From contig JAQULZ010000002.1 in the NCBI GenBank assembly GCA_028718375.1, positions 1 through 64,000 of the forward strand: 64,000 nucleotides of DNA, written 5' to 3'. The stretch is from Victivallaceae bacterium. Its GTDB lineage: Bacteria > Verrucomicrobiota > Lentisphaeria > Victivallales > Victivallaceae. This document shows, one piece after another, positions 7,724 through 42,524 of this stretch; the stretch's first letter is position 1, and the number at the start of each line of letters is the position of its first letter. The notes below the pieces were generated by a model. It saw only the letters and a program-made list of their open reading frames with translations. It was not told the origin of the DNA and searched no databases. Made by a program: the position numbers and the translations under genes.

Positions 7724-10255
<2,532 letters not shown>

Positions 10256-36265: not shown

Positions 36266-36462
36266 AAGCACCGGTTCCCCGTTGATAAAACACCGGAAAT
36301 AATCTATCACCGGTAAATTCCCGATGCAATGCGCAAACCGAAATTTCTTACGTCAGACAGCAACTGGTTGACATTTTTTTTATGGATAAAAATGCGGTTG
36401 TTCCCGTAAAACGCGGCGGGACGCATGAATCAGAAACCCTTAATCAACAAAAGGAGAAGTAA

Positions 36463-37077
36463 ATGGATGTAACGGAAATTCTCAAAAAGGCGGCGGCGGG
36501 AAAGACGCTTTCCGGCGAGGAACGCCGTGCCCTGAGTGAATTTCACCCGCAGGGAATTCCCCAAAGCCGGCTGGACGCGGAAATTGCCAAACGCCAGGAG
36601 GTCGAGCAACGGAACGGCGAATTGAACCGGACGCTCAGCAAGTTGAGTTCCCGGGTCGAGGAGCTGGAAAACCGTGACCTGCCGGAATATGAGAAACTCA
36701 AAAAAAATTACGGCAACGAAGTCCGGCAACTGCGGGAGCAGATCTCGTCGCTGACCTCGGAACGGGATTCCGCCGGCCGGGAACTGGAGCAGATCAAATT
36801 CCAGCAGCAAGTCGGCCAACTGGCGGAAACGAAGCAGTTCAACGATCCCGAATATCTGGGGTTTCTGCTCAAAAAGGCCAACGTTTCTCCGGAAGAACCG
36901 GACCGGGTCGAGGACTTCATGAACCGGCTGCGGGAAAGTTCCCCGAAATTGTTCCGGCTGGAACTGCGTTCCGGCAGCGGCAGCAGTCCCGGCGGGCCGG
37001 AAATGGAGTTTTTTACCGCCAAGCAAAGCGGAGACATTACCGCCATGCTGGCCAATGCTCCGGAAGTAATCAACTGA
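36463..37077 (+). CDS. Phage scaffold-like protein (GP20-type), coiled coil
   Basis: GIPQSRLDAEIAKRQEVEQRN...coiled coil...SGDITAMLANAPE; RBS AAAGGAGAAG; directly upstream of capsid gene. Confidence 0.75.
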   Translation: MDVTEILKKAAAGKTLSGEERRALSEFHPQGIPQSRLDAEIAKRQEVEQRNGELNRTLSKLSSRVEELENRDLPEYEKLKKNYGNEVRQLREQISSLTSERDSAGRELEQIKFQQQVGQLAETKQFNDPEYLGFLLKKANVSPEEPDRVEDFMNRLRESSPKLFRLELRSGSGSSPGGPEMEFFTAKQSGDITAMLANAPEVIN

Positions 37078-37110
37078 TTTAACCAACTGATTTGAAAAAA
37101 GGAAAAAATT

Positions 37111-38262
37111 ATGGCTTTGTACACTTACAGTTTCGTCAATAAAAAGCGCGATCTTACCGATGTGCTCTCAACCGTCATCAAGGATGAACCCCGGTTCATC
37201 GCCAATTTCAAGCGCGTCGAAGACACCGCTCAACAGAAACACGAATGGCTCGAAGACCAGATCGCGGGGCGCGCCGTTACCGCGACCGCCGTGGATACTT
37301 TGGTGGTTACCGCTTCTCCGGCGGATGTCGCCAAACTCAAAGTCGGGACCCTGCTGGTGATTAAAAACGATTCGGCGCTGTTCAAAGTTACCGTCATCAA
37401 CAGCAGCACCGCTTTTACGGTAGCGCTTGCCGCCGCCAACGGTTCAAGCACCACTACCCCGGTCGCCGATGACGTGATGAGTATCGTCAGCTCTCCGATG
37501 AGCGAAGGCAGCGCAAACGGCGACGGCGAAGAATCCTATCACCTCAGCGACAGCAATTACAACTGCACCCAGATTTTCCGCAAGGACATCATTCTGACCG
37601 GTTCCGCGCTGGCGATCAACATTCTGGGCAATGTCGACAACCAGATCAACCGCCAGACCGCGTTCGCCCTCAGCGAAACCGCCCGCGATCTGAACCGGGT
37701 CGCTCTGTTCGGACGCCGGGTCGAAGCCGCGTCCGGGACCAGCGGTGAAATCGGGGGACTGTATTATTTCGGGACCAATTCCGATTTCCTGAGCGTTGAC
37801 GCGTCCAGTCTCGCATTGGACAGCTTCATGGTCAATGACGCCGCCCAATGTATCCTCAGCGAAGGCGGCGAACCGTCCCAGATTCTCTGTTCTCCCGGAC
37901 AGGCGCGGGTGCTGTCCAACGAATTCCGGGACAAGCTGCAGATCGTCCGTTCCGACGAAAAACGCGGCGCTTACGTAGCGGTGGTGATCAATGAGATCAA
38001 CGGCCGCGCCATGACCATCACCGCGGATCCGGATGTACCGGACACCGACGCCTGGGTCATGGATGTCGCCGGCTTCGGGTTGTCCAACCTCAAGGGACGG
38101 GCGCTCTCCGACGAAGACGCCACGCCCAAGGGGTTCGACGGCATCAAACGCATGGCGCTCGGCGAACTGACGCTCGAATTCAAAAACGCGCGTCAGCGCC
38201 TGTGCCGGATTCACAGCCTGCAGGCCAGCGCCGCCGCTTTAGCCGCGCTTAAGAGTGCTTAA
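37111..38262 (+). CDS. Major capsid protein, DUF5309 / SU10-type HK97 fold
   Basis: NCTQIFRKDIILTGSALAI...ALSETARDLNRVALFGRR...ILCSPGQARVLS...DPDVPDTDAWVMDVAGFGLSNLKGRAL...GELTLEFKNARQRLCRI, matching the DUF5309 pattern. Confidence 0.85.
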   Translation: MALYTYSFVNKKRDLTDVLSTVIKDEPRFIANFKRVEDTAQQKHEWLEDQIAGRAVTATAVDTLVVTASPADVAKLKVGTLLVIKNDSALFKVTVINSSTAFTVALAAANGSSTTTPVADDVMSIVSSPMSEGSANGDGEESYHLSDSNYNCTQIFRKDIILTGSALAINILGNVDNQINRQTAFALSETARDLNRVALFGRRVEAASGTSGEIGGLYYFGTNSDFLSVDASSLALDSFMVNDAAQCILSEGGEPSQILCSPGQARVLSNEFRDKLQIVRSDEKRGAYVAVVINEINGRAMTITADPDVPDTDAWVMDVAGFGLSNLKGRALSDEDATPKGFDGIKRMALGELTLEFKNARQRLCRIHSLQASAAALAALKSA

Positions 38263-38289
38263 TAACCTGTAGTACCTCATTTTTTACCT

Positions 38290-38340
38290 GGGGGGCTATG
38301 TTTGTCAGCTTAAAAACCGGCAGGCATAGTCCTCTTTTTT
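38290..38340 (+). terminator. Terminator-like hairpin after the capsid gene
   Basis: GGGGGCTATG...CATAGTCCTC stem followed by TTTTTT. Confidence 0.55.
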
Positions 38341-38388
38341 CGATCCCGGAATAACTGATATCTCACTTAAATTACGGAGGAATCTCTC

Positions 38389-38751
38389 ATGATCAATATC
38401 ACCAGTGTAAATGAATACCTCGCTTTGCATCTTCAGGCGGATTTCTGGAGCTCACTGGACGACAATAAAAAAAATGCAGCGTTCAAGATGGCGGTCGACG
38501 ATGTTTGCGGCTGTCTGGGGATAACGGAAATCGATCCGGCCCGGATTTTCCAGATATGCGCGGTCGGCGAACAGGCGGTTTTCCTGGCCGAACATTATGA
38601 CAGCTTCAATTCCGCCCGGCAGATTACTTCGGAAAAGATTGACGGAGTAGGAACGCGGGAATATAATTACCGCCCGCTTTCCGCATTCAGCCCGCGTGCC
38701 CTGGCCTTCCTGGAACGGGAAGCCGGAGTTTTGAATATTTCGAGGGGATGA
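38389..38751 (+). CDS. Head-tail adaptor (gp6/DnaT-like) candidate
   Basis: 120 aa; ...GEQAVFLAEH...ITSEKIDGVGTREYNYRPLSAFSPRALAFLEREAG resembles phage head-tail connector pattern; RBS ACGGAGGAATC. Confidence 0.6.
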   Translation: MINITSVNEYLALHLQADFWSSLDDNKKNAAFKMAVDDVCGCLGITEIDPARIFQICAVGEQAVFLAEHYDSFNSARQITSEKIDGVGTREYNYRPLSAFSPRALAFLEREAGVLNISRG

Positions 38752-38966
38752 GAGCCGGGAAGCTCCGCGATATGGATATATATTATTTTTTTCACCCTTA
38801 AACTTTGTAAGTGCTAGCAGGACAGACAAATATGATTTTCAGGGGTAAATCCGGGATTCGATATCCAGGGGGTTGAAGTTCCCGGATAAAAATTAATCAG
38901 GAAATTTATTTGGCATTGCCGCGGCAGCTTGCAAGCTAACCCAATCGCAAAAAGGAGTTTTTGAGT

Positions 38967-39407
38967 ATGGACTCAAGCACGGTATCGAAATTGTTCGCTT
39001 CAGAAACCATAATCGTTGGTTACAAGGGCAAAACGCTCGGCGGCACGGGGGCTATGCCGCAATGGGAGATCGAGCCGGTAATCAATGAAAACCGTTATTT
39101 CAGACCGAATGACGGGGTGTTGGCAAAGTTGACGGTAAGCAGTTCAATAAGCCTGGAATTTGAAGCGCTGAATCCCCAGCATCCAGATAAATCCGGGGTT
39201 TTATATTTCCCGTATGATTTTGACAATACGCCCGGGGAACTGACTTTTCTGCCCCTGAATCCGGGAAACCGGACGGCTTATTATTTTCCTCTGGCCGAAC
39301 TGAAAAACCGGCCGGAAATGATCCGGGATAATCGAGTCCGCTGGAAATTTGAAATCTTTTCCGACGCGAACGGCGTGTTCATGGAAAAGGTGCTGGCCAA
39401 TAATTGA
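38967..39407 (+). CDS. Small beta-rich virion-like protein, paralogue A (possible tail-tube-like)
   Basis: IIVGYKGKTLGGTGAMPQWEIEP...; RBS AAAAAGGAG; paralogous to the next ORF. Confidence 0.6.
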   Translation: MDSSTVSKLFASETIIVGYKGKTLGGTGAMPQWEIEPVINENRYFRPNDGVLAKLTVSSSISLEFEALNPQHPDKSGVLYFPYDFDNTPGELTFLPLNPGNRTAYYFPLAELKNRPEMIRDNRVRWKFEIFSDANGVFMEKVLANN

Positions 39408-39432
39408 AATATATCCATCCAGGAGAACTGTT

Positions 39433-39897
39433 ATGATTTACCATGCCGAATTTTTCGAGGAGGGGCCGTGGATCGTCGCGTATAAAGGAACGGCGGTCGG
39501 AGTGACGGCTGAGCTGCCGCGGTTCAGGTTTGAACCCGGATTTTATGAGTCCCGGTGCGATCGGAGCGAAGGCGAGGCGGTTTGCAAAATCATCGCCCAC
39601 CTGAATCTTACCGTTTCCGTGAATGTTCGGGATATAGCTGAAACCTTCGCCGGTTTTTCCGCTTCCGGCCCGGCCGCGGCCGGAGTGGTTTTCAGGAAAG
39701 AGGTGCTCCGGACCGGAGGCGAACTCCGCCTGACTCCCCTGGTCGGCGGCGGCAAGACCGGCTATCGTTTCCTCCGGACGGTACTTATTTCGGAAGCCGC
39801 TCAGGCTTACCGGAGTATGGACGGAAAATGCCTTAAACTTGATTTCGAGGTTCATGAAAATCCGGAAGGCGTATTACTGGAGAAGTTTTTCTTATGA
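39433..39897 (+). CDS. Small beta-rich virion-like protein, paralogue B (possible tail-tube-like)
   Basis: WIVAYKGTAVGVTAELPRFRFEPGFYESRCDRSEGEAVCKIIAHLNLTVSVNV; RBS CAGGAGAAC; ATG at 39433. Confidence 0.6.
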   Translation: MIYHAEFFEEGPWIVAYKGTAVGVTAELPRFRFEPGFYESRCDRSEGEAVCKIIAHLNLTVSVNVRDIAETFAGFSASGPAAAGVVFRKEVLRTGGELRLTPLVGGGKTGYRFLRTVLISEAAQAYRSMDGKCLKLDFEVHENPEGVLLEKFFL

Positions 39898-39914
39898 ACT
39901 GATTAACAGACTTC

Positions 39915-39943
39915 GTGTCTCCGGGAAACCGGGGACACTTTTT
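39915..39943 (+). terminator. Rho-independent terminator ending the capsid operon
   Basis: GTGTCTCCGG-GAAA-CCGGGGACAC followed by TTTTT. Confidence 0.85.
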
Positions 39944-42181: not shown

Positions 42182-42200
42182 ATAAAAAAAGGTATTGTTT

Positions 42201-42524
42201 ATGGCAAACGTACAACGACTGGAACTGAATTGGATCGGCAAGGGGAGATGGCCGCAGCTCGAGCCGCGGATTTTGCTGGAGGAGCGCGACAAATCCTACG
42301 GCAGCCGCCATACTGAGAATATGCTGATCCACGGCGACAATCTGCTCGCCTTAAAAGCTCTCGAACAGGATTACGCTTTCCGGGTAAAATGTATTTATAT
42401 CGACCCGCCCTACAATACCGGCCAGGCCTTTGAGCACTATGATGACGGGGGGGAACTTTCCCAGTGGCTGAATCTGATGGCACCGCGGCTGCACCTGCTT
42501 CACCGGCTGTTGAGTTGCCTGTAA
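42201..42524 (+). pseudogene. N-terminal fragment of site-specific (adenine) DNA methyltransferase
   Basis: MANVQRLELNWIGKGRWPQLEPRILLE...NMLIHGDNLLALKALEQ...CIYIDPPYNTGQAFEHYDDGG with DPPY motif, then truncated. Confidence 0.85.

Follow-up and report, generated by a model that had tools for sequence, protein, structure and literature searches.

The window, a stretch of 64,000 nucleotides from a Victivallaceae genome, contained five co-directional and intact open reading frames between positions 36463 and 39897, each with a Shine-Dalgarno-like sequence upstream, predicted to encode a capsid scaffolding protein, an SU10-type major capsid protein, a head-tail adaptor and two tail-tube proteins, B1 and B2 (Table 1). 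The start of B1 was set at the ATG at 38967 and not at an upstream TTG. An earlier note on this DNA had described the five reading frames and had named the scaffold and the DUF5309/SU10-type capsid protein, and all of this was recovered on re-examination, with the Pfam matches given in Table 1. Its head-tail adaptor agrees with the position of the gene in relatives and with a structure model (pLDDT 88) weakly similar to the phage T1 portal-adaptor and to YqbG, although a Pfam scan of the protein gave no match. The same note had recognized two paralogous small beta-rich proteins, which are present, but had missed that they are tail-tube proteins. This identity was assigned because the B2 model retrieved the tail-tube proteins of phiCD508 and siphophage R4C in a fold search (E<=0.001), and because the HMM family of B1 and B2 includes a gene placed between the tail terminator and the tape measure in related phages. 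At the same threshold, B2 also matched tail-tip, collar, connector and baseplate structures (Bxb1, Diffocin, Mu). Sequence searches of the PDB with the adaptor, capsid, portal, tube and X proteins gave no useful match. The clean terminator reported behind B2 does have a 10-bp stem and a T-run, but in a scan of the region such sites were no more frequent than in shuffled sequences. The surroundings were housekeeping genes, as had been stated, encoding RsmE (PF04452), a LysM protein and a sigma-54 response regulator. Between the regulator and a LysM lipoprotein gene lies a truncated DNA methylase fragment (42195-42524, + strand, 109 aa, N6_N4_Mtase PF01555, E 9.7e-8), which resembles the beginning of a restriction-modification gene, cut short.

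Table 1. Location of the particle genes and associated features in the window, on further contigs of its genome and in strain zth2
Feature	Location	Strand	Basis or remark
Shared upstream element GGTTGACATTTTTTTTATGG	window, 36366..36385	+	97 bp 5' of scaffold start
Capsid scaffolding protein, 204 aa	window, 36463..37077	+	PF06810 E=3.8e-10; phrog_194
SU10-type major capsid protein, 383 aa	window, 37111..38262	+	PF17236 SU10_MCP E=2.1e-43, residues 8-369; phrog_1328
Putative head-tail adaptor, 120 aa	window, 38389..38751	+	place after capsid gene in relatives; weak fold match
Tail-tube protein B1, 146 aa	window, 38967..39407	+	HMM family including tube genes of related phages
Tail-tube protein B2, 154 aa	window, 39433..39897	+	fold search with structure model (pLDDT 76); 36% identical homologue in phage contig L388
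Intrinsic terminator-like hairpin and T-run	window, 39915..39938	+	10-bp stem
Portal	C11:1101-2480		one copy in window genome; g15-derived probes
Large terminase	C139:3671-4897		one copy in window genome; g15-derived probes
Tube/terminator fusions, zth2	CP071032, 0.739 and 1.276 Mb
Terminases, zth2	CP071032, 1.604 Mb
Scaffold-capsid-adaptor-B1-B2, zth2	CP071032, 1.774 Mb
Portal, zth2	CP071032, 1.786 Mb
X, zth2	CP071032, 2.605 Mb

The earlier note had taken the capsid operon to be an orphan without packaging machinery and had suggested searching the remaining genome for a large terminase and a portal. Gene comparison detected neither in the window, but each was encoded once elsewhere in this genome, on a contig of its own, so that the operon is not an orphan. 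The window genome is a fragmented MAG, 87% complete. Genes outside the window were predicted with a simple purpose-made caller, and genes of the compact g15 head cluster described below served as probes. The portal gene is followed by a head-closure gene of about 99 aa, and a small terminase gene lies ahead of that for the large terminase, which keeps the motifs GGSRSGKT (Walker A), YFNECSE and VGVDPAV and matched 5oe8/5oea in a PDB sequence search. Searches with tail-tube and terminator profiles revealed a fused tube and terminator gene of 282-297 aa, located away from the head genes; it lies on contig C84 in the window genome, next to a further tube protein of 142 aa, and is present in two copies in strain zth2. 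We assigned the fusion to the capsid-operon system because in a same-genus contig (L176) it directly follows scaffold, capsid, adaptor and tube protein. Tube-domain genes thus number four in the window genome (B1, B2, the fusion and the 142-aa protein), the same number as in zth2.

With two phage tape measures as probes, no tape measure of the dispersed set was detected in zth2 or in most carriers, and neither its lysis genes nor its regulator were found. Contigs C137, C29 and C197 of the window genome (L252, L253 and L254), with a decoration protein, a major tail protein and a tape measure, were considered as its tail module and rejected, as they appear to be prophage sequence of an ordinary kind, distinct from the set and also with three consecutive antirepressor paralogues. 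A protein of 433-463 aa in g7 and g19 (L310:7061-8452, L311:5732-7036, L312:7492-8793, L324:8714-10015) has the tail terminator domain as its C-terminal third and may contain three terminator-like repeats.

As judged from gene content, a gene set for a phage-like particle is split into at least five separate pieces, of which the capsid operon is one; the others in the window genome lie on C11, C139, C84 and C104, the last with gene X (below). In zth2 (G012, CP071032), which is assembled as one closed contig, the parts occupy six places (Table 1) over about 1.9 Mb, a span that exceeds known phage heads. In G021 they lie at 0.518, 0.569, 1.858, 2.242 and 2.585 Mb of one contig. The pieces adjoin host genes: X is next to rpsO and the portal next to a CvfB-like S1 protein in the window genome, and pieces in zth2 adjoin aminotransferase-like and shikimate-dehydrogenase-like genes, named from their sequence. 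Conserved synteny of the capsid operon with rsmE, which had been proposed as a check, was not found, since the surroundings of the locus vary even inside the genus. Some genomes have two of the parts side by side (portal and terminase in G025, X and terminase in g7, X and terminator in G005 and G022), indicating that the grouping of parts is fluid.

The sequence GGTTGAC(A/G), with a T-rich run behind it, was present about 40-115 bp 5' of the scaffold, portal and terminase starts. It was first spotted by eye in these upstream regions and counted afterwards, when it was found in 51 of 67 leaders of the dispersed genomes as compared with 16 of 468 control leaders (Fisher 1e-42). The tail-gene leaders, which had no part in spotting it, carried it in 11 of 11 cases. 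We found no conserved sigma-70 -10 box downstream of the element, which points to a dedicated sigma factor or activator, and the scattered operons are apparently switched on together. The window itself has eight GGTTGACR sites, where shuffled sequences gave 3.2 (sd 1.7); of these, the site at 36366 alone lies ahead of particle genes, the others being at 8461, 12128, 32260, 45774, 49630, 58437 and 60787.

When the pattern was searched in six genomes, zth2 gave eight matches, of which five were the known operons and a sixth lay ahead of X, a previously undescribed protein of about 490 aa that is also encoded behind the element in the window genome and in G003. Pfam and PHROG scans of X gave no significant family. 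With g15 left out, X was present in 32 of the 35 terminase-positive genomes of the family and in none of the 9 terminase-negative ones; it also occurred in another family, in three genomes that all have head genes, and in 35 of 199 genomes of the class overall. The element had thus predicted a further member of the set, since the distribution of X bore the prediction out. X is most likely a tail-tip protein, because in phage contig L388 its homologue (41% identity) follows a complete series of closure, neck, terminator, tube, chaperone and tape measure genes. Downstream of X lie a gene of 166-171 aa in zth2 and relatives and then one of 264 aa in zth2 (L386:2976-4273, L385:1-148, L387:2979-3494), which may belong to the same operon and encode parts of a tail fibre or tip.

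Of 150 related genomes, 73 carried a relative of the capsid gene, among them most genomes of the family to which the window belongs; those with named records belong to Victivallaceae/Victivallales of Lentisphaerota. The same parts recur in the majority of family genomes and also in a second family. Capsid, portal and terminase were jointly present or absent across 79 family genomes (Fisher 2.5e-13 to 3.3e-12), an association that is partly trivial within g15, where the genes are linked. Among 18 genomes, the trees of these three proteins had 6-7 of 15 splits in common with that of rpoB (shuffle maximum, 3), and a Mantel test of the particle proteins against rpoB gave 0/1000. These comparisons suggest that the particle genes are broadly vertical and co-diversify with the host; as the trees agree only in part, a degree of horizontal exchange may have occurred. 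The dN/dS check that the earlier note had called for gave 0.067 for the capsid between the window genome and G003, far below 1, with 0.084 for the portal, 0.17 for the scaffold and 0.045 for rpoB; overall the values ranged from 0.02 to 0.2, which shows purifying selection on the particle genes. Identity between the same two genomes was 87.8% for the capsid and 90.1% for rpoB, while the tail proteins change faster (within-genus identity of 62% for B1 and 40% for B2). In the terminase tree all dispersed forms fell into one clade (support 94), apart from the prophages and from the g15 clusters, which grouped with L032 and L044; the capsid and portal trees gave the same groups, less cleanly. The family also contains complete prophages related to the set (L032, L044, L048 and L144). 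Single in-frame stops, due to sequencing error, decay or read-through, were observed in otherwise conserved copies of the portal (G061:C54, G056:C8, G014:C183, G008:C58) and of the tube protein (G011:C53, G027:C34).

Gene transfer agents (GTAs) are defined by caudoviricete-derived proteins that form tailed-phage-like particles, encapsidation of mostly random pieces of host DNA, a genome that is endogenized in the host, often at several loci, and that cannot be packaged whole into one particle, mostly vertical inheritance with co-diversification with the host, and delivery of the packaged DNA to other cells (Kogay et al. 2022, PMC9662315). Three of these six properties were found here: multi-locus endogenization, mostly vertical inheritance and phage-derived proteins predicted to form particles, since the scaffold, capsid, portal, terminase and tube proteins all have homologues in phage families. 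We propose, with a probability of roughly three in four, that the capsid operon is the capsid piece of a host-domesticated, co-regulated and dispersed GTA of Victivallales (Lentisphaerota). The genomic evidence gives good support to the view that the gene set would work like a GTA, and we infer that the particle packages and delivers host DNA. A regulator acting on GGTTGAC(A/G) would turn on all pieces at once in some cells, scaffold and capsid protein would build a procapsid on the portal, and the terminase would load the heads with pieces of the host chromosome by headful filling, as we propose because a phage genome to recognize is absent. Closure, tube, terminator and X would then finish the tail, and the released particles would inject host DNA into related cells.

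A more far-reaching form of this proposal, which we put forward tentatively, is a fully exploded GTA whose units lie apart and are held together only by the common regulator, and whose tail has lost its tape measure; the tail would be short and of fixed length, made by stacking the different paralogues B1, B2, the 142-aa protein and the tube/terminator fusion, with X at the end. Speculatively, stacked non-identical rings would explain both the lack of a tape measure and the four tube-domain genes.

All the evidence for domestication would fit equally well a phage-derived particle with a role other than transfer, such as a killing particle that packs host DNA, like PBSX of Bacillus, or a storage or delivery shell, and the fast-evolving tail proteins could mirror changing targets. 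However, the portal and a terminase with intact motor and nuclease motifs have been kept, which a shell alone does not need and which points to DNA packaging, and we consider such a role improbable, though the strongest of the rivals. The co-inheritance of these two genes with the capsid also speaks against the domesticated shell without packaging that the earlier note had offered among three options, and led us to reject an encapsulin-like shell without portal and motor. Of these options, that of a GTA part dispersed over several loci is the one that our results support. The satellite remnant, the third, is at odds with family-wide conservation, purifying selection, dispersal and the common upstream element, which agree with the note's argument against simple prophage decay.

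That the genes are surviving remnants of one or several decaying prophages is very unlikely, even though their phage origin is certain, the family harbours complete related prophages and a few copies elsewhere contain in-frame stops; the reading frames are intact, dN/dS is low, the parts are retained in most family genomes and a second family, and they are jointly present or absent and have a common upstream element. We give as little weight to a satellite of a phage, or a chromosomal island that forms capsids, with a helper supplying the machinery: the compact g15 head cluster, without adjoining tail genes, resembles one, but the window-type parts lie at separate chromosomal places, have tail genes of their own and belong to a distinct terminase clade.

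The proposed GTA resembles the RcGTA-type agents of alphaproteobacteria (Rhodogtaviriformidae) in its phage-derived head and tail genes, chromosomal location, vertical inheritance and distribution over several loci, although the capsid families are unrelated as far as known. RcGTA retains a main structural cluster, as, to our knowledge, do the described GTAs, whereas in the Victivallales set even capsid, portal and terminase lie apart. In BhGTA (VSH-1) of Brachyspira (Brachygtaviriformidae), the only identifiable terL, conserved and single copy, lies outside the 16.3-kb structural cluster (PMC9662315), so that the terminase is likewise detached from the structural genes; unlike the Victivallales set, the remainder forms one cluster, and the phylum is different. 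The phages and prophages of Lentisphaerota (L032, L044, L048, L144 and L388) have homologues of the capsid, portal, terminase, closure, terminator and tube proteins, and L388 also has one of X, but their genes form a contiguous block with a tape measure and fall into a separate clade of the terminase tree. Capsids of the reference phage set were only 24-27% identical to the window type.

Literature searches retrieved no GTA for Lentisphaerota. The cultured strain zth2 and strain WC36 release hexagonal particles of <100 nm upon polysaccharide addition (PMC11361711). The deposited phage zth2-2 (OL791268), considered as their source in zth2, encodes none of these parts and matches no examined stretch of zth2, and the particles therefore cannot be assigned to the dispersed gene set and serve as a lead only. 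If true, a head-and-tail particle whose genes are split among at least five co-regulated operons would show the reach of phage domestication. Such dispersed genes would evade cluster-based prophage finders, and the combination of one upstream element with co-occurrence offers a recipe for finding similar systems.

The compact head cluster of genus g15 encodes a small terminase (phrog_309), a portal (phrog_145), a scaffold, a capsid protein, an adaptor, a C5 protein and a large terminase (PF03237/PF17289). These seven genes were found in L061, L062, L068, L069, L070, L075 and L076, one cluster per genome, in changing surroundings, often next to a divergent repressor-like gene and without adjoining tail genes, and their leader also bears GTTGAC(A/G). 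The cluster may represent a second domestication or a satellite. A catalogued viral contig, L033 (IMGVR_UViG_3300022661_003906), carries a portal and a terminase identical to those of the g15 cluster of G050 and is probably host DNA.
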